Part shown: in pieces, positions 1,448 to 21,104 of the stretch | How positions within the stretch are numbered: position 1 is the first letter of the stretch | How the letters are laid out: each line of letters starts with the position of its first letter | IMG/VR virus record: IMGVR_UViG_3300035070_003083 | Span: 1-22,743 of that record | Source: a virus | DNA: 22,743 bases | Reading direction: 5' to 3' (one strand) | The notes under the pieces: model-generated | Seen by the model: the letters and a program-made list of their open reading frames with translations, nothing else | The model's database searches: none | Told to the model about the DNA's origin: nothing | Program-made: the position numbers and the translations under genes

Positions 1448-1612
1448 TTAGTCTGTATCTTTGGCTATCTTTATAAGTCTATCTAATGTAGCAAATGGTG
1501 TTATTGTTTTTTCTCCATTCACTTCTTTCATAGAATTGTATAGACCTACTGTAACAACGTCTTTTACAACATCTACAGGAAGTTTTATTATATTTTTGAT
1601 TATGTTAAACAT
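1448..1612 (-). CDS. Hypothetical protein, 54 aa
   Basis: ATG 1610-1612 to TAA 1448-1450. Valine/isoleucine-rich N-terminal amphipathic segment (KLPVDVVKDVVTVGLYNS) then a charged C-terminus. The style is reminiscent of short phage proteins of unknown function that are often annotated near lysis or replication genes; I cannot assign a role. It is the first gene after the gene-free region 1613-2051, separated from the base of a 20-bp RNA helix by about 30 AT-rich nt. Confidence 0.6.
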   Translation of the reverse strand: MFNIIKNIIKLPVDVVKDVVTVGLYNSMKEVNGEKTITPFATLDRLIKIAKDTD

Positions 1613-1639
1613 ATATATTTATTTTATTATTTGTTAATT

Positions 1640-2040
1640 ACGGACATAGTACAGAGGGTAAGAAATTAAGGTTACTCACTAGCGACTGCATACACGCATA
1701 AGTCCTAGCCTTTCTGTTGTGTATGTCTGTCTATGTTACTTACACCTCTGTACCATATCCATAATGTATTAAATGTAGGCAACACCACACGCGTTCCTCA
1801 CTATTTGAACATACACGTTATGATGGTGTACTTAGTGGTCGAGTGTTCAGGCTCAATATCTATATTCCCCCGACAATACTTAATAATGTTAATGTGCAAT
1901 TATGTGCAAACGCCGAGCCAGCAACAATGGTGAGATATATTTGTACTTGGTATATCTATCTTTGATAAGTTGCATATTCGGTGTCTACACACAATCCCAG
2001 TTCTTCACTGGATAAGAAAGGCAATATGCTTGCCTGTCCT
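1640..2040 (-). ncRNA. Candidate large structured RNA / leader R1
   Basis: Gene-free stretch, visibly richer in G+C than its neighbours. A helix of about 20 bp joins 1642-1661 with 1740-1760 (6 + 1 + 9 + 4 bp, one bulge at 1744). At 1645/1758 and 1648/1754 the minus-strand RNA has G-U pairs where the plus strand would have mismatches, so the RNA is probably minus-sense. Inside, stem 1679-1687/1701-1708 has a 13-nt loop whose 1689-1695 can pair with 1719-1725 (7 bp), a likely pseudoknot. More hairpins: 1799-1803/1833-1837 with inner 1812-1816/1826-1830; 1933-1939/1951-1957; 1997-2001/2007-2011; 2019-2024/2030-2035. No known RNA family is recognised. It heads the operon 1008-1612. Confidence 0.5.
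1881..1909 (-). promoter_or_regulatory. Possible early promoter, copy E (weak)
   Basis: Two tandem TTGCAC hexamers (1904-1909 and 1894-1899) match the -35 box of copies A-D. From the first, a 17-nt spacer leads to TTATTA (1881-1886), a poor -10. If active it would start an RNA containing the 20-bp helix and pseudoknot, then the genes from 1612 down. The hexamers may instead be part of R1. Confidence 0.3.
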
Positions 2041-2051
2041 GACAATTAAAA

Positions 2052-2351
2052 CTATTCTCCATGCTGTTTTTTGTAATCAGTTTCTAGAAAATCAAGTAAG
2101 TCTTGTTTTATATTATTGTTCCCAAATCTAGCAAATAAGGATGAAAGTATTGCTATCTCTGTTCCTTTCTGTTCAATAAATAACCCTTTTGCATGTGATA
2201 CTCCTCTACCATAATGGTCGTGGTGTTTAGAGTTATAATGAATTTTGATAGATTCCTCTAATCCTCTTTTCGCACTGTATAACATTGATTCAAATGCACC
2301 TGTATCATCTTCACTCAATGTTATTTCCAGTCTTTGTGTTTTTATGTACAT
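2052..2351 (-). CDS. Hypothetical protein, 99 aa
   Basis: Unrecognised small soluble protein. It begins with a beta-like segment (MYIKTQRLEITLSEDD), then helical stretches and a histidine-rich centre (NSKHHDHYGRG, about residues 41-51) that could bind metal. It follows the small TM gene 2357-2482 by 5 nt, and its stop is the last codon before the foldable region R1. Probably transcribed from promoter copy B. Confidence 0.7.
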   Translation of the reverse strand: MYIKTQRLEITLSEDDTGAFESMLYSAKRGLEESIKIHYNSKHHDHYGRGVSHAKGLFIEQKGTEIAILSSLFARFGNNNIKQDLLDFLETDYKKQHGE

Positions 2352-2853: not shown

Positions 2854-3081
2854 TTACCAAAACTTCCACCACTTAGGTTTATAGTTTTCTAACTGTTTAA
2901 TGAACAAATCTTGTTTATATTTTTCAACAGCTCCTTTCTTTTCTGATTCAAGATATTCTTGAAACTTATTTTGCCAAAACTTCTCATCTAATCCTATCTT
3001 ATTGTATTCTTTCAATGGTATATTCATTGTAAAATTGTATTCAAAGAAGAATCCTAAGTGTATGTTTTTTGTTTTTATCAT
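2854..3081 (-). CDS. Hypothetical protein, 75 aa
   Basis: Unrecognised. A short N-terminal beta-like part is followed by a lysine/glutamate-rich helix and a tryptophan-rich end (KPKWWKFW). Its ATG overlaps the stop of 3078-3407 by 4 nt, so translation is coupled. It is the last gene of the recombination operon, lying just before promoter copy B. Confidence 0.65.
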   Translation of the reverse strand: MIKTKNIHLGFFFEYNFTMNIPLKEYNKIGLDEKFWQNKFQEYLESEKKGAVEKYKQDLFIKQLENYKPKWWKFW

Positions 3082-3407
3082 ATGTTTGTGTAATGTTTTA
3101 TAAACTCATCTTCCTCTAGGCTAGGAAATCCTATTAGTATTCCTTGTTCTAAGAATATCTTATCTACCTCCTTGCAAGCATTAGTAAGTTCTACTGTAGT
3201 TGCATCGGCTGTGCTATCTTTTTTGTACATTGCTTTTAAGACTGCTCTGATGATCCCTTTGACTGCTTCAGGTGTCCAGTCAACCTCCATGTTCTGTACT
3301 ACTGCCTTATAAGATACACCTTTGTGTGAACATTCTCTTGCAAGTTCATCACACCATTTATGGAGTGCCTTGTTTTGTTGATTTGTACGTTGTTTTTCTA
3401 TTTTCAT
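3078..3407 (-). CDS. TNQQNKALH-type phage protein, recombination-associated (109 aa)
   Basis: The opening (EKQRTNQQNKALHKW, residues 3-17), a middle WTPEAVKGIIR and a later STADATTVEL block match a pattern I know from small phage proteins found beside recombination genes and sometimes annotated NinB-like. The pattern match is from memory and the biochemical role is not established. Here it lies just downstream of the YqaJ exonuclease and annealing-protein candidates, which supports a role in recombination or replication. ATG start; overlaps the next gene by 4 nt. Confidence 0.5.
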   Translation of the reverse strand: MKIEKQRTNQQNKALHKWCDELARECSHKGVSYKAVVQNMEVDWTPEAVKGIIRAVLKAMYKKDSTADATTVELTNACKEVDKIFLEQGILIGFPSLEEDEFIKHYTNI

Positions 3408-3477
3408 ATGTTTTTAAATATCCTGATAACTGATAGATATGGTTATGACCGAGAATAAAACTAATTATAATCGCCAT
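3358..3477 (-). CDS. Possible small ORF, 39 aa (doubtful)
   Basis: ATG 3475-3477 to TAA 3358-3360, starting MAIIISFILGHNHIY and ending within the 5' part of 3078-3407 in another frame (50-nt overlap). It would fill most of the 101-nt gap 3408-3508. A short hydrophobic start is the only feature. The overlap and lack of a recognisable start signal make it weak; the gap may simply be untranslated. Confidence 0.25.
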   Translation of the reverse strand: MAIIISFILGHNHIYQLSGYLKTYENRKTTYKSTKQGTP

Positions 3478-3508
3478 AGCTACCAGATAACAAAAGGTTT
3501 ATGTTTTG

Positions 3509-4114
3509 TTAAAATGCCATAAGCTGATTTTTGTATTCTTCTATCTTTGCTAATTTACCCAACTGATAGTTTTTATAATACTCTACATCTTCTTCATCAC
3601 GTTCTACCTCTATAAAGAAGAAAGGTTTTGATACAATTCTCGGATCATAGAAACAAAAGTATAGTTTCTCTAGTTTTTCATTTACGATAAAGTATTGTAA
3701 TACTTGGTACTTGTATTCACTAGGTATCTTCTGTGTAAAGTAGGCTTCTAGGTGTCGTGATGCTGATAGACACTTAACCTCTACTGCTTCTGTTTTTCCT
3801 ATAACTCCGTCAGGTGAACATGCTATGTTTTCATTTTCATCACTGATCCACATACCTGTAGTTTTAACCTTTTTACCTGTAATCTTTTCAAACTCTTGTA
3901 TAGCGTTAGGCTCAAACTCGTGTCCTCTTTCTCTAGGGTTTTCTGATTCTGATTCATCTTCTATAGACAGACTATCTGCAAGTAGTTGCCAAAATCCTAT
4001 CTTTTCATTTGTGCCTTTTTCTACTACTATGTTTTTAAGTTTTGAACCAGTTATCTTACCTTTTCGAGCAAGTAACCATTCATCGGAGTTTTGTTCTATG
4101 TCTAGGATTTTCAT
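3509..4114 (-). CDS. YqaJ-like (lambda exonuclease family) recombinase nuclease, 201 aa
   Basis: Expected role: 5'-3' degradation of linear duplex DNA to make 3' single strands for an annealing partner. The N-terminus (QNSDEWLLARKGKITGSKL, residues 8-26) is the classic W..R...ITGS entry of the YqaJ domain; E66 lies in RGHEFEPNA, and the PD-(D/E)XK core is SPDGVIG (D102) followed by EVK (E112, K114). A glutamine-rich-helix equivalent (YQVLQYF) follows. Length is typical. ATG sits at the last base of the upstream annealing-protein gene, giving coupling. Together they form a two-gene phage recombination system. Confidence 0.85.
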   Translation of the reverse strand: MKILDIEQNSDEWLLARKGKITGSKLKNIVVEKGTNEKIGFWQLLADSLSIEDESESENPRERGHEFEPNAIQEFEKITGKKVKTTGMWISDENENIACSPDGVIGKTEAVEVKCLSASRHLEAYFTQKIPSEYKYQVLQYFIVNEKLEKLYFCFYDPRIVSKPFFFIEVERDEEDVEYYKNYQLGKLAKIEEYKNQLMAF

Positions 4115-4611
4115 TATTTTAGTTTAGATTTTAGTTGGTCTTTAATTTTTACTATTTCTACATCTCCTTTGATAGCTCCAATTGACTCGAAGTTATCTTT
4201 TAACTCTTGAAGAGTAGTTGAGCTTTCTAACAACTCAATGGCTTCTTGCTTCATCTCCCTGTTTTTTTCTTTCTTATAATCCTCAAAATCATCCATTTCT
4301 TCTGATGATGCAATATCACCACTTGCCATAAATCCAAGTATTGCTAATGCTCTACCGATAGATATAGTTTCAAGTTTTTCAAATGCCTTATCTCCTTTAT
4401 TTGCACCAATAGCATGACCTGTAGCAGATGCAGAGTTTATATCTGATTTGTCTTTAAGTATGTATGCTTCAAAGAGTATTTGACCTCCATCCATGATAGT
4501 AGGTTTTGTTTTTATTTCACCTCGTGGGCATGCTTCACGAAACTCTTTTATACGAGCTGGTACTGTTGCGTATGCTTTTCCTTTAAGGTCTATTGTTTGA
4601 GTTTTTTTCAT
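4114..4611 (-). CDS. Probable phage ssDNA-annealing protein (Rad52/ERF-like), 165 aa
   Basis: The segment LETISIGRALAILGFMASGDIAS (about residues 80-102) resembles a motif of the form ETSAIGRALA..G....SIASADEV that I associate with phage and plasmid annealing/recombination proteins. Upstream it has beta-rich text ending in a glycine-rich ATGHAIGANKG, and downstream a charged helical tail. The family name is from memory of the motif, not from a search. Position immediately upstream of a YqaJ nuclease is the strongest support, as these two usually work together. Overlaps 3509-4114 by one base. Confidence 0.6.
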   Translation of the reverse strand: MKKTQTIDLKGKAYATVPARIKEFREACPRGEIKTKPTIMDGGQILFEAYILKDKSDINSASATGHAIGANKGDKAFEKLETISIGRALAILGFMASGDIASSEEMDDFEDYKKEKNREMKQEAIELLESSTTLQELKDNFESIGAIKGDVEIVKIKDQLKSKLK

Positions 4612-6547: not shown

Positions 6548-6564
6548 ACTGTTTGTATTAGTTT

Positions 6565-6857
6565 TTTTGTTTTCCTAGATTTCATTGTTACAGCCCCCCT
6601 TACCCAAGTAACTCTTTTAAGAGATTACAAGTGTAAGAAGAATTGTAGCGAAATCTGGAAAGTATTTTCCTGAGTTTCAGTGTCAGTTTTAGGCGACACA
6701 CCACAACGGTTACAGGCGTATTAAAGTCGTCCTGTTAAACCCCCCACGACTATAGAAAAAACCTTTCACAGTAGCAGGATAAAGTTTTAGCTCTATCCCA
6801 AACCACCATGAAAAGTTTCTTTGGTGGTGGCTTACTGTGGCAATCATTTCTGATTAC
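6565..6857 (-). ncRNA. Candidate structured RNA / long leader R2
   Basis: Lies directly behind promoter copy D, with transcription expected to start near 6857. Minus-sense helices: hairpin 6842-6846/6851-6855 with a GAAA tetraloop; a three-way junction with P1 6833-6839/6767-6773 (7 bp), P2 6822-6827/6803-6808 plus an inner 4-bp helix, and P3 6791-6798/6777-6784 (8 bp, one G-U that is a mismatch on the plus strand); then a U6 run (6755-6760); hairpins 6746-6751/6725-6730, 6666-6670/6657-6661, and a two-part hairpin 6633-6637/6599-6603 with 6619-6628/6608-6616; long-range 6650-6656/6577-6583. No known riboswitch or ribozyme class recognised. Confidence 0.5.
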
Positions 6858-6863
6858 TCTTTA

Positions 6864-6893
6864 AGTATACTCCACCAATTATTTTATATGCAA
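6864..6893 (-). promoter_or_regulatory. Early promoter, copy D
   Basis: Minus strand TTGCAT (6888-6893), 18 nt, TATACT (6864-6869), followed by TAAAGAGTAA as in copies A and B. It would transcribe the structured region R2, then the nuclease-like, replication-like and methyltransferase genes. It diverges from the plus-strand promoter at 6993-7021. Confidence 0.7.
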
Positions 6894-6943
6894 CTGTTTT
6901 TTCAACACAAAACATTTTTCAAACTTTATCAACTCTATCTCAC

Positions 6944-6981
6944 CAACAGGAAACAAAACGATGAGGAGTTACGACCTGTTG
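6944..6981. repeat. Inverted repeat CAACAGG/CCTGTTG
   Basis: A 7-bp perfect inverted repeat, 6944-6950 and 6975-6981, with 24 nt between the arms. It lies between the divergent promoters at 6864-6893 and 6993-7021, so it could be an operator for a switch protein. The spacer carries a short ACAAAACGATG string with no usable ORF behind the ATG (9 codons). Confidence 0.35.
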
Positions 6982-6992
6982 ACAAGATAGAA

Positions 6993-7021
6993 TAGACAAA
7001 TGTGCTGACCTAGAATATAAT
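6993..7021 (+). promoter_or_regulatory. Plus-strand promoter of the 7029-8316 operon
   Basis: TAGACA (6993-6998), 17-nt spacer, TATAAT (7016-7021), a near-consensus sigma70-type promoter. The -10 ends 7 nt before the first ATG at 7029, so the mRNA start would fall at or next to the start codon and the message would be leaderless. Confidence 0.75.
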
Positions 7022-7028
7022 ATACAGT

Positions 7029-7187
7029 ATGCAAGCAAAAAAAGCAACAAAACGATGCAAAGGTGATTTAATGTTACAACTCATGTTTTTAGATAAACTC
7101 GATGAGGTGGTAAGAAAGTTTGAAGAGAAACATAAGTGTAATATTAAGTACAATATTGAAAATCTAATGATCAAGAAAACAAAATGA
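7029..7187 (+). CDS. Small basic protein, 52 aa
   Basis: ATG 7029 to TGA 7185-7187. The N-terminus is strongly basic (MQAKKATKRCKGD), followed by one long helix (LMLQLMFLDKLDEVVRKFEEKH). Basic start plus helix suggests nucleic-acid or phage-protein binding, but no family is recognised. First gene of the only plus-strand operon, right behind its promoter, and its stop overlaps the start of 7184-7354 (ATGA). Confidence 0.65.
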   Translation: MQAKKATKRCKGDLMLQLMFLDKLDEVVRKFEEKHKCNIKYNIENLMIKKTK

Positions 7188-7355: not shown

Positions 7356-8225
7356 ATGCGACAACTACCAAACCAATGTTATGAACAACAAACAGGAGGT
7401 GAACAAGTAGCCAGTGAGGGTCAAGTATTTTATCTAACTGAAAAAGTAGAAGTAAATGACAATGGGATCTTCCAGTGGCTTAAAGGTGCTGAATACCCAC
7501 AAAAGGGTATGCCTCAAGCAGAAGCTATATTTGCTGTGAACGTGGCTAAAAGGCTATTTATTCACTCTCTACGCTTCGCAAGTGAGCTTTGGTATATCTT
7601 GCCTATCTTTATTACTAAACGCTCGTTAGAGGGCAAAATAGGGGCATTTAATGAGATATCTATAAAGATTATATCTCCGTATATCCTTATACCTCAATTA
7701 TTGACATCTTTGGCACGTGAGTTAGGTAAGTTCTGTACTACTTTTTTACTTAAGATAGGAATATCAGAAAATACATCTATAGACTTTGGGAAGATAATAG
7801 CTACCATGTTTGAGTATGATAATGCGTATAGATTTAGAGTACAGGATTTATTCACTGCAAGTTCAAAAGAACAGATACAAAGTGATCCATACAAAGAAAT
7901 ATGTAGATTACTAGACCTTGCGCAACAAAGAGATGATGCAGGTGTACATAAAAAGTTTAGATATATAAAACCTATCCTATGGATTGCTTTCAAAGTTCCT
8001 AGAATAAGAAAGTCGTTTATTAAGACATTTGATGTAATAGATTTTAGTAAATTACAGTTTGATGAGATAGATAATTATTGGATAGGCATGAGAACGGATT
8101 ATGATTTCTATGGATTAGAACCACAAGAAAGAGCTGATAGGTTCTTAACAGGAAAGAAATTACCAACACCAATGACACAACAAGATTATGAGAATTATAT
8201 TCGCACTATTAGTGACAGTAATTAG
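7356..8225 (+). CDS. Unknown protein, 289 aa (largest plus-strand gene)
   Basis: I do not recognise this protein. It appears in three parts: a hydrophilic start (residues 1-60) with glycines; a hydrophobic, aromatic-rich middle (about 75-145: RFASELWYILPIFITK, IIATMFEYDNAYRFRVQDLF) and a charged C-terminal part with a helical core (YKEICRLLDLAQQRDD) and a tyrosine-rich end. No catalytic motif, cysteine cluster or clear signal peptide. The middle is hydrophobic but interrupted by charges, so stable membrane insertion is uncertain. It starts 1 nt after 7184-7354 and overlaps the small TM gene 8188-8316. The most prominent unexplained gene in the window. Confidence 0.75.
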   Translation: MRQLPNQCYEQQTGGEQVASEGQVFYLTEKVEVNDNGIFQWLKGAEYPQKGMPQAEAIFAVNVAKRLFIHSLRFASELWYILPIFITKRSLEGKIGAFNEISIKIISPYILIPQLLTSLARELGKFCTTFLLKIGISENTSIDFGKIIATMFEYDNAYRFRVQDLFTASSKEQIQSDPYKEICRLLDLAQQRDDAGVHKKFRYIKPILWIAFKVPRIRKSFIKTFDVIDFSKLQFDEIDNYWIGMRTDYDFYGLEPQERADRFLTGKKLPTPMTQQDYENYIRTISDSN

Positions 8226-15284: not shown

Positions 15285-15719
15285 TTAATTTACAAACCCT
15301 GTAGCATTTACTGTTATATCTAACTGCTGTGAGTATACTTGTCCGTTAGGTGTTTCTATTTCACCTCTTGCACCTACCGCAGGTGTAACCCAATCTGCAT
15401 ATCCACCTAGAGTTAGGTTAGATTCCTTTCGTAGTTCTGTGATAAGAGTATCTGTTACATTATCAAGTGTGTCTTTTACTGTTTCAATGGTCCGACCCTC
15501 TATAGCAACAATTACATACGCTGTAAATACAATCTTGATAATATTTTCCTTGTTAGTAAAGAAAGCATCTGTATTGCTTGTGATATCAAATACAACTGCT
15601 GGATATGATGTTACGTTAGGCTCGTAGTAGTCATATACAACTGCAATAGTTGTTGATGTTACAAGGTTACTAATAACTGATTTCAGATTTGTACGTAGTG
15701 TTCCAATATTTAATGACAT
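15285..15719 (-). CDS. Tail terminator/minor tail protein, 144 aa
   Basis: Occupies the slot between the gp10-like protein and the tail tube, where tail-terminator (lambda gpU-like) genes lie. Text such as YDYYEPNVTSYPAVVFDI (about residues 29-46) and FTAYVIVAIEG, followed by a helix, fits this fold (an alpha-beta sandwich). It caps the tail tube and binds the head. Starts 4 nt after the stop of 15724-16182. Family assignment from position and motif style. Confidence 0.65.
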   Translation of the reverse strand: MSLNIGTLRTNLKSVISNLVTSTTIAVVYDYYEPNVTSYPAVVFDITSNTDAFFTNKENIIKIVFTAYVIVAIEGRTIETVKDTLDNVTDTLITELRKESNLTLGGYADWVTPAVGARGEIETPNGQVYSQQLDITVNATGFVN

Positions 15720-15723
15720 ATGT

Positions 15724-16182
15724 TTAGATTTCTTTAATTATATTTTCTAATGCTTCTCCGAATAGTCTATCAACTGTATTTCGTTGACTATCAATACTAT
15801 TCTTGAAAAATGGGTTAGCCTTAGTACCTTTCTTAGATATTGACTTAGCTACTGCATAAGGATTTAAACCACGTCTAGAAGCCCAAATAGATAGGTTAGA
15901 GCCTGATACGTAGTGAGGTTTAGTACCAAACTCTACTGATGTGCCATATGAAAAGTTTTTTTCTTTTGCTCCTGATGATAATGATCCCTCAAATCTTTTC
16001 ATGTTTACTTTCCAGTTATTACGCAAGTTTCCTGATGTACCAAATGGAGCGTTCTTTGTAGCTTCTCTTTGTATTCTCAATAGTGAATCTCTAATAGCCT
16101 TATTAACATGCTTTTCACTAATAGCAGGATATTTATCTACAGTATTTATGAGTTCTGAAAGACCATTGATAGTGATTTCCAT
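15724..16182 (-). CDS. HK97 gp10-like head-tail/tail-completion protein, 152 aa
   Basis: Contains the HK97-gp10 hallmark: a helical start (SELINTVDKYPAISEKHVNKAI), then RIQREATKNAPFGTSGNLRNN (the conserved ..A...P..TG.LR..) near residues 32-55, and VEFGTKPHYV (about 86-95). Length typical. One base after head closure gene 16184-16489 and 4 nt before the terminator gene. Confidence 0.8.
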   Translation of the reverse strand: MEITINGLSELINTVDKYPAISEKHVNKAIRDSLLRIQREATKNAPFGTSGNLRNNWKVNMKRFEGSLSSGAKEKNFSYGTSVEFGTKPHYVSGSNLSIWASRRGLNPYAVAKSISKKGTKANPFFKNSIDSQRNTVDRLFGEALENIIKEI

Positions 16183-16183
16183 A

Positions 16184-16489
16184 TTATTGAGGTTTTACTA
16201 TTAAAGCTCGTTTATAATCCAATAAATTGCCATGTTCAAAACTAGCAACTCCTTTTACTGTATACTCAATAGTATCTATTACTAGCTTGTCATTTTCCTT
16301 TACATCTACTCCAACCTCAAATATAGCGTTATAGCCAATACCAAACTGAAACCCATTGTTTGAGCTTTCAGTTTCTGATAATGGCTTTAAATAACAGTTA
16401 TCCGTTGATAATGTAGTTAGACTTGAAATGTTCCCTACATACACCTGACGTTTTATTGTTACTGACTTTTGCGATGTAAAGAAGTTCAT
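16184..16489 (-). CDS. Head closure/stopper protein, 101 aa
   Basis: Seals the head and joins the connector to the tail. SVTIKRQVYVGN, then YLKPLSE near residue 35 and KENDKLVIDTIEYTVKGVASF (about 63-83) match the small beta-barrel head-closure proteins (SPP1 gp16-like family). Follows the connector gene by 2 nt. Length typical. Confidence 0.7.
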   Translation of the reverse strand: MNFFTSQKSVTIKRQVYVGNISSLTTLSTDNCYLKPLSETESSNNGFQFGIGYNAIFEVGVDVKENDKLVIDTIEYTVKGVASFEHGNLLDYKRALIVKPQ

Positions 16490-16491
16490 GG

Positions 16492-17076
16492 CTATTTATA
16501 ATTTATATATCTTGCAAGTCTGTTTTGATAATCTTTTGTGATACTTTGTGTTGAAAATGTGATTGATTGTCCCTCTGTACTCATTGTATTGATACCTCCT
16601 GATGACCTTGTGTTGTATGTAGATGCAATAAGCTCGTTTACTATCTGTGTTAAGTCATAGGGAAGTGTGTGTGTAGCTGTACCCTCATTATCAAAGTCTA
16701 TAAGATACCCTCCAACATATACTATCTGTAGATATTTAGTGATTTTTGGCAATGTTCCTGCAAATGATAGTCTTCCTTGATCACCTGTTAGTAGATATCC
16801 TGATGCTGGGTATGTTGTCCAAGTTATGTTATCCCATGTACCTGTTTGATACTTAACTGATGTTAGTGATGATACAGGGTAGTTAGGTAGAAAGATTTTA
16901 GTTTCTCCGTCTGTATCGTAATACTCTGTATGTGTAGCACTACCAAACTCACGACCACAAAAAGATTCAATACCAGCTGATACAGCTGTTATGAGGCTAG
17001 ATAATAGGGTATCTTGTGTAGATCCTGATATTCCTAGATATGTCTTTACTTTTGTGAGAGTAGTTAAGTCTGCCAT
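16492..17076 (-). CDS. Head-tail connector (gp6/gp15-like), 194 aa
   Basis: ADLTTLTKVKTYLGISGSTQD, then LLSSLITAVSAGIESFCGREF (residues 24-44) is the helical entry of the gp6-like head-tail connector, which forms a ring under the portal. A beta-rich insert (about 45-130) and a C-terminal helix (IVNELIASTYN) follow. Its ATG shares a base with the previous stop (TAATG), giving coupling. No portal gene is nearby, so its usual neighbour is elsewhere. Confidence 0.75.
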   Translation of the reverse strand: MADLTTLTKVKTYLGISGSTQDTLLSSLITAVSAGIESFCGREFGSATHTEYYDTDGETKIFLPNYPVSSLTSVKYQTGTWDNITWTTYPASGYLLTGDQGRLSFAGTLPKITKYLQIVYVGGYLIDFDNEGTATHTLPYDLTQIVNELIASTYNTRSSGGINTMSTEGQSITFSTQSITKDYQNRLARYINYK

Positions 17077-20370: not shown

Positions 20371-20379
20371 ATAATATCA
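20371..20379 (-). promoter_or_regulatory. Extended -10 box before 20210-20362
   Basis: TGA-TATTAT on the minus strand (TATTAT at 20371-20376), 8 nt before ATG 20360-20362 and directly behind the terminator tail at 20379-20403. Same terminator-to-promoter layout as at 20844-20876. Confidence 0.5.
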
Positions 20380-20403
20380 AAACAAAAACACTATTGCTAG
20401 TGT
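20379..20403 (-). terminator. Intrinsic terminator, GCAA tetraloop, copy 1
   Basis: Minus-strand stem ACACTA/TAGTGT (6 bp) with a GCAA tetraloop, then UUUUUGUUUU. The same stem, loop and tail recur at 20852-20876. It ends the gene-free, foldable stretch R3. Confidence 0.75.
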
Positions 20404-20409
20404 CTTTGT

Positions 20410-20660
20410 GAAGTTAATTTAACCATACTTTAGAATACTCTATACATATCTAAAGCTTTCATCTAGTTCTCGGTTTTACAAAGGATTTACACCTTGTGTC
20501 GCTTATATATGCTCCTAGAATAACGCACATATGTAGCCTAGCCTTGTAACCTCCTGTATAGCAGGTGTTACGAGCAAGTTATAGGTATATAATATGTCAA
20601 ACCCCCTTCACTGTAAAGGGGGTCTGGCTATTTTATTTACCTATTTTGTAGGTAGTTATA
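20410..20660 (-). ncRNA. Candidate structured RNA R3
   Basis: Gene-free stretch after 20661-20837, ending at the terminator 20379-20403. Helices: 20638-20643/20649-20654 (6 bp); 20598-20608/20616-20626 (11 bp, including CCCCC/GGGGG, with one G-U on the minus strand that is a mismatch on the plus strand); 20546-20556/20562-20571 (GTAAC/GTTAC plus CCTG/CAGG); 20428-20433/20450-20455. The second could partly act as a terminator for 20661-20837, but its U tract is interrupted. The rest has no identifiable role and no recognised RNA family. Confidence 0.4.
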
Positions 20661-20837
20661 TTATACCTCATGATAACAATTGATACCACTTAATGGTGCT
20701 GTTCCATTTGGAGTTATCCAACCACTACCAGTTAGTCCACTTGTAGTGTAACTTTCTTTTACTAATGCTTTGATGAGTTCAACTTTCTTATCATCTGATA
20801 TATCAAACTCAAGTATTTTTTTGATTGTGTTTATCAT
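20661..20837 (-). CDS. Small hypothetical protein, 58 aa
   Basis: ATG 20835-20837 to TAA 20661-20663. The first half is one helix (IKKILEFDISDDKKVELIKALVKES) and the second a Gly/Ser/Thr-rich tail (TTSGLTGSGWITPNG) ending CYHEV. The -10 TAAAAT with TGG extension is 6 nt upstream. Not recognised; the helix plus flexible tail could be a structural accessory. Confidence 0.55.
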   Translation of the reverse strand: MINTIKKILEFDISDDKKVELIKALVKESYTTSGLTGSGWITPNGTAPLSGINCYHEV

Positions 20838-20843
20838 AGTTAT

Positions 20844-20852
20844 ATTTTACCA
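20844..20852 (-). promoter_or_regulatory. Extended -10 promoter for 20661-20837
   Basis: TGG-TAAAAT on the minus strand (TAAAAT at 20844-20849), 6 nt before the ATG. Its TG overlaps the tail of the terminator at 20852-20876, so the two are fused. Confidence 0.6.
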
Positions 20853-20876
20853 AAACAAAAACACTATTGCTAGTGT
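20852..20876 (-). terminator. Intrinsic terminator, GCAA tetraloop, copy 2
   Basis: Same stem as copy 1: ACACTA/TAGTGT (20871-20876 with 20861-20866), GCAA loop, then UUUUGUUUU. It ends transcription from 20961-21342 and runs into the promoter at 20844-20852. Confidence 0.75.
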
Positions 20877-20936
20877 CTTGTGTCCTACCATCGAAATAAT
20901 AGGAGGGATAGGTATATGATAACAATTATTTATTAA

Positions 20937-20950
20937 AATACCAAGTCAAG
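20937..20950. repeat. Inverted repeat arm (left), 14 bp
   Basis: AATACCAAGTCAAG at 20937-20950 is the exact reverse complement of CTTGACTTGGTATT at 21369-21382. The arms flank the two-gene block 20961-21342. Confidence 0.55.
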
Positions 20951-20960
20951 GGATTTATAA

Positions 20961-21104
20961 TTATTTATTTAATACCATTCTGATATCGATTATCACAGCT
21001 CTAAAGTATTCTGCTAATCCTTTTACATCATTCCTATCTACATACTGTGCTATGATATGTTTTTCAGGTAGGCATTCTTTTATTTCTTGTTTAAGTTCTT
21101 GCAT
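20961..21104 (-). CDS. Small hypothetical protein, 47 aa
   Basis: ATG 21102-21104 to TAA 20961-20963. Helical, charged (ELKQEIKECLPEKH, then VKGLAEYFRAVIIDIRMVL). It overlaps the end of 21091-21342 by 14 nt in another frame, a typical translational coupling. Not recognised. Confidence 0.6.
   Translation of the reverse strand: MQELKQEIKECLPEKHIIAQYVDRNDVKGLAEYFRAVIIDIRMVLNK

Follow-up and report, generated by a model that had tools for sequence, protein, structure and literature searches.

What occupies the 439 nt that separate two minus-strand genes in the early module of this phage? We analysed an IMG/VR virus record, linear and 22,743 bp long (hereafter the window), in which the siphophage-like structural genes lie on the minus strand and the early module, followed by small genes, is found at the left. 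The locus at 1613-2051(-) exactly fills the gap between the stop codon of the gene at 2052-2351(-) and the ATG at 1612 of the gene at 1448-1612(-), and belongs to the same early module as the recombination genes at 3078..4611(-). The features were the following:

1448..1612, minus strand: downstream gene, 54-aa protein of no known family
1613..2051, minus strand: gene-free structured element, candidate noncoding RNA (ORF map; minus-strand MFE z -5.3; strand asymmetry, 0/150 shuffles)
1613..1637, minus strand: A/U-rich unpaired leader of the downstream gene, outside the stable helices (sequence and fold)
1638..1764, minus strand: predicted 3' domain, a 25-bp helix (1638-1662/1739-1764) around a 13-bp hairpin helix (1684-1698/1715-1731) (covariance model R1)
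1764..1898, minus strand: predicted middle domain, less well defined, with hairpin 1789-1818
1899..1995, minus strand: predicted 5' domain, a 17-bp helix (1978-1995/1899-1916) plus a 5-bp helix (1969-1973/1921-1925) (pair probabilities at least 0.96; covariance model R2)
1997..2038, minus strand: two predicted 5' hairpins, 2016-2038 and 1997-2011 (fold and terminator scoring)
2052..2351, minus strand: upstream gene, 99-aa protein of no known family
3078-3407, minus strand: NinB/Orf-like recombination gene
3509-4114, minus strand: YqaJ/RecE-like exonuclease
4114-4611, minus strand: partner protein, adjoining YqaJ in relatives

We found no convincing open reading frame on either strand of 1613-2051, in agreement with the sequence-only reading, which had described the region as gene-free. 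The longest ORFs under the standard code encoded 32 aa (minus strand) and 66 aa (plus strand), and neither was supported. A recoded gene was rejected, since no single minus-strand frame spanned the region even with both TAG and TGA recoded. The region is also richer in G+C than its neighbours, as had been pointed out (0.35-0.385 versus mostly 0.25-0.36 in the flanking windows).

The minus strand of the region reached a minimum free energy (MFE) of -127.2 kcal/mol (z -5.3), and none of 100 dinucleotide shuffles folded as well, whereas the plus strand reached -108.6 (z -2.3). The difference between the two strands, -18.6 kcal/mol, was not equalled in any of 150 shuffles (mean -1.7, sd 5.9), and the better-folding strand is the sense strand of the flanking genes. 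A scan of the record in sliding windows of 200 nt ranked 1601-1800 and 1901-2100 within the top four for minus-strand folding. The region is thus gene-free with a strand-specific fold above chance, which is what we look for in a structured noncoding RNA of a phage. Together, folding energy, strand asymmetry and position give good support to the minus-strand structured RNA that had been proposed here. Elsewhere in the window, the gap between divergent genes at 6548-7030, which is probably a control region, showed even stronger minus-strand local folding (200-nt z -5.6 at 6701-6900).

Two long helices dominate the predicted fold. The 20-bp helix reported earlier at 1642-1661/1740-1760 proved to be the core of a helix of 25 pairs (1638-1662/1739-1764), with 3 G-U pairs, one bulge and a pair probability of at least 0.92. 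A second long helix that had gone unmentioned (1899-1916/1978-1995) comprises 17 pairs, including 3 G-U, with one A-C mismatch and a probability of at least 0.96. The inner helix of the 3' domain had a pair probability of at least 0.81, and further hairpins extend up to 2040 as had been noted, e.g. 2016-2038, 1997-2011, 1921-1973, 1789-1818 and more.

The arms of the first helix were also recovered in a repeat search as an inverted repeat (1637-1657/1745-1765; 86% complementary, 87 nt apart), which raises the question of whether the signal belongs to DNA rather than RNA. A replication origin or a recombination or packaging site could carry such 21-nt arms as protein-binding sites, and the repeat is indeed gene-free and close to the recombination genes. 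The imperfect positions of the helices speak otherwise: on the minus strand the two long helices hold 6 G-U pairs against 1 A-C, and since G-U pairs read as A-C on the plus strand, this excess favours a minus-strand RNA, though the count is modest and not absolute. The earlier statement that the G-U pairs exist on the minus strand only holds for those pairs, and the one A-C mismatch of the second helix keeps the asymmetry from being complete. The strand difference in MFE, beyond that of all 150 shuffles, also argues against a DNA-level element, and we consider it improbable. Neither iterons nor a turn in GC skew were found at the locus, and packaging sites usually lie near the capsid genes, which are 16 kb away here; the specific proposals of a replication origin or a cos site, the latter expected beside packaging genes, were rejected on these grounds.

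The sequence-only reading had also drawn a pseudoknot inside the 3' domain. The complementarity on which it was based is present (1689-1695 with 1719-1725, 7 bp), but in the minimum-energy fold these 7 bp are nested within the 13-bp helix 1684-1698/1715-1731. The nested fold of this stretch is preferred over the alternative hairpin (-12.4 versus -10.2 kcal/mol), and the pseudoknot drawing leaves a cramped joining loop of about 1 nt between its two 3' strands. On this modelling the pseudoknot is unlikely. A possible pairing of 1913-1919 with 1850-1856 (-9.0) would make a more plausible tertiary contact, though one equally unproven.

We then compared the element with known RNA families. None of the families of Rfam 15, including GOLLD, ROOL, raiA, tmRNA, RNase P RNA and group I introns, matched at the gathering threshold or at E<=5, in line with the earlier impression that neither GOLLD nor ROOL could be recognised. 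ARAGORN detected no tRNA and no tmRNA anywhere in the window, and a full-text literature search for structured noncoding RNA in Patescibacteria phages returned no match. ROOL is a large structured RNA of phages and prophages, often near tRNA islands, and GOLLD is phage-encoded with extensive secondary structure, many of its members exceeding 800 nt; the function of both is unknown, and both form RNA-only cages (PMC12286853). The element resembles ROOL as a candidate large structured phage RNA, and differs from it in the missing Rfam match, the absence of a nearby tRNA and its shorter length. With GOLLD it shares a phage origin and extensive predicted secondary structure, but it is only about 440 nt long, lacks a match to the covariance model (which includes the universally conserved 3' region) and has no tRNA, whereas GOLLD members frequently contain tRNAs or lie close to them.

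No relative of the element was recovered in any of our searches. Only short chance matches were obtained by blastn against annotated phages and plasmids and by exact-pattern search of IMG/VR with one 20-mer and one 16-mer, and the neighbouring proteins (1008-1283 and 2052-2351) as queries yielded no relatives. Contigs found by shared genes (15 for YqaJ, 39 for the methylase-like protein, 19 for the capsid protein and 40 in a second YqaJ search) did not contain the RNA. We also built three single-sequence covariance models, one per domain (R1-R3); over the related-phage contigs these matched only the window itself, apart from one 12-bit chance match in contig L041. Among genomes of the candidate host order, the search by DNA (n=131) yielded nothing beyond short or chance matches, and the search by models (R2, n=384; R1, n=380) gave one match of 56 nt, too short for a relative.

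Among long contigs, the nearest relative by capsid was G015 (contig L041), whose structural genes are up to 77% identical to those of the window. It has no detectable homologue of the recombination module of the window, so the missing RNA there says little. For this reason, the absence of homologues reflects sparse sampling of the recombination module as much as non-conservation. The searches speak neither for nor against the suggested new family: no known family was matched, and with no second member there is as yet no family and no covariation to read. Two other observations were made in the comparison with G015. The 289-aa gene at 7356-8225 of the window runs counter to the rest of the genome, but in G015 the homologue is oriented like the structural genes; this segment is therefore inverted between the two. 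The window contains two copies of the hairpin CACTAGCAATAGTG, each with a T run behind it (20372-21090), and G015 carries the same hairpin at 15679-16711 with a matched stem change (GCCACTAGCAATAGTGGT), which makes it probably a conserved terminator.

How unusual is such a fold among these phages? We drew on the window and on related low-GC phages for a set of 53 gaps between co-directional genes, each 200-600 nt long (52 detected automatically, plus 1613-2051 itself). A sense-strand z of -5 or lower was observed in 4 of the 53 (about 8%), the element among them; strong intergenic folding in these phages is thus uncommon and not unique, which makes the element interesting rather than exceptional. 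This base rate, together with the lack of relatives, is what speaks for coincidence or decay, in which case the stretch would be an AT-rich spacer, or a dead gene, whose hairpins arose by chance. We regard that explanation as very improbable, given that dinucleotide shuffles never matched the fold, that two helices of 25 and 17 bp occur together with a marked strand asymmetry, and that no remnant of a reading frame was found in 1613-2051.

Folded gene-free gaps were also found downstream of the same recombination genes in two relatives (L151, 11866-12079; L155, 10863-11230). Neither matched the element by sequence or by the covariance models, so they offer a positional analogy at most. The L151 gap is about 200 nt long, gene-free, folded and sense-favoured, between co-directional genes downstream of NinB. 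The L155 gap lies about 300 nt downstream of YqaJ and folds with extreme stability on the sense strand (z -16.8). It carries a promoter-like TATAGT box as well as a hairpin with T6 behind it, and looks like a small RNA gene in its own right. In a bolder reading, the phages of Patescibacteria-like hosts would tend more generally to set unrelated structured RNAs next to their recombination genes, and the element would belong to a new trans-acting, multi-domain RNA family of about 430 nt; we hold this to be rather unlikely.

The probable host bears on how such an RNA might be processed. Capsid relatives (51%) were found in two metagenome-assembled genomes of 1.3-1.4 Mb, and the order to which these belong has small genomes, mostly of 0.6-1.4 Mb. 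Ribosomal protein uL30 was missing in all 57 order genomes tested and present in 13 of 14 controls, which we take to be as expected for Patescibacteria. No clear Shine-Dalgarno motif was seen at the 32 window genes examined, where A-rich stretches precede the starts. The phage probably infects Patescibacteria-like bacteria with tiny genomes, its link to that host being indirect. RNase III was found in all genomes examined from the candidate host order (57/57).

In phages such as T7, RNase III processing sites of early mRNAs are long helices between co-directional early genes. The element likewise has long helices in that position, but is much larger and multi-domain, and its processing is putative. 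It could be a cis-acting mRNA feature only, a region of processing, stability or attenuation that tunes the later small genes with no free RNA. Such a role would fit its place between co-directional genes, the lack of a standout promoter and of a terminator-like site after it, the stop of the fold just before the leader of the next gene and the 25-bp helix, a plausible RNase III target. To our knowledge, known phage RNase III sites need far less than 440 nt in three domains, and we consider a purely cis-acting feature possible but not probable.

With slightly better than even confidence, we favour a minus-strand structured RNA element of about 400-440 nt in the early operon, perhaps freed by host RNase III. 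The element would be transcribed within the operon, between the recombination genes and the run of small genes, as three domains of which the outer two are built on the 17- and 25-bp helices, with about 25 nt left between the end of the stable fold and the next start codon. In the most likely course, host RNase III would then cut the long helices and separate the upstream and downstream mRNAs, and this cutting would release a compact, stable RNA that may act in trans, as is supposed for ROOL and GOLLD, or the structure may serve only in cis. No promoter stands out at the element, and nothing terminator-like was found from its 3' end to the next gene, the latter favouring co-transcription; co-transcription with processing is the simplest model. 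The first 5' hairpin also scores as a weak terminator-like site (2019-2035), directly after the upstream stop codon, and could end upstream transcription.

The element is a credible, single-copy candidate for a structured RNA, assigned to no family and represented by one unreplicated sequence. Large structured phage RNAs are few and unexplained and, if transcribed, this element would be a compact candidate in which to test them.
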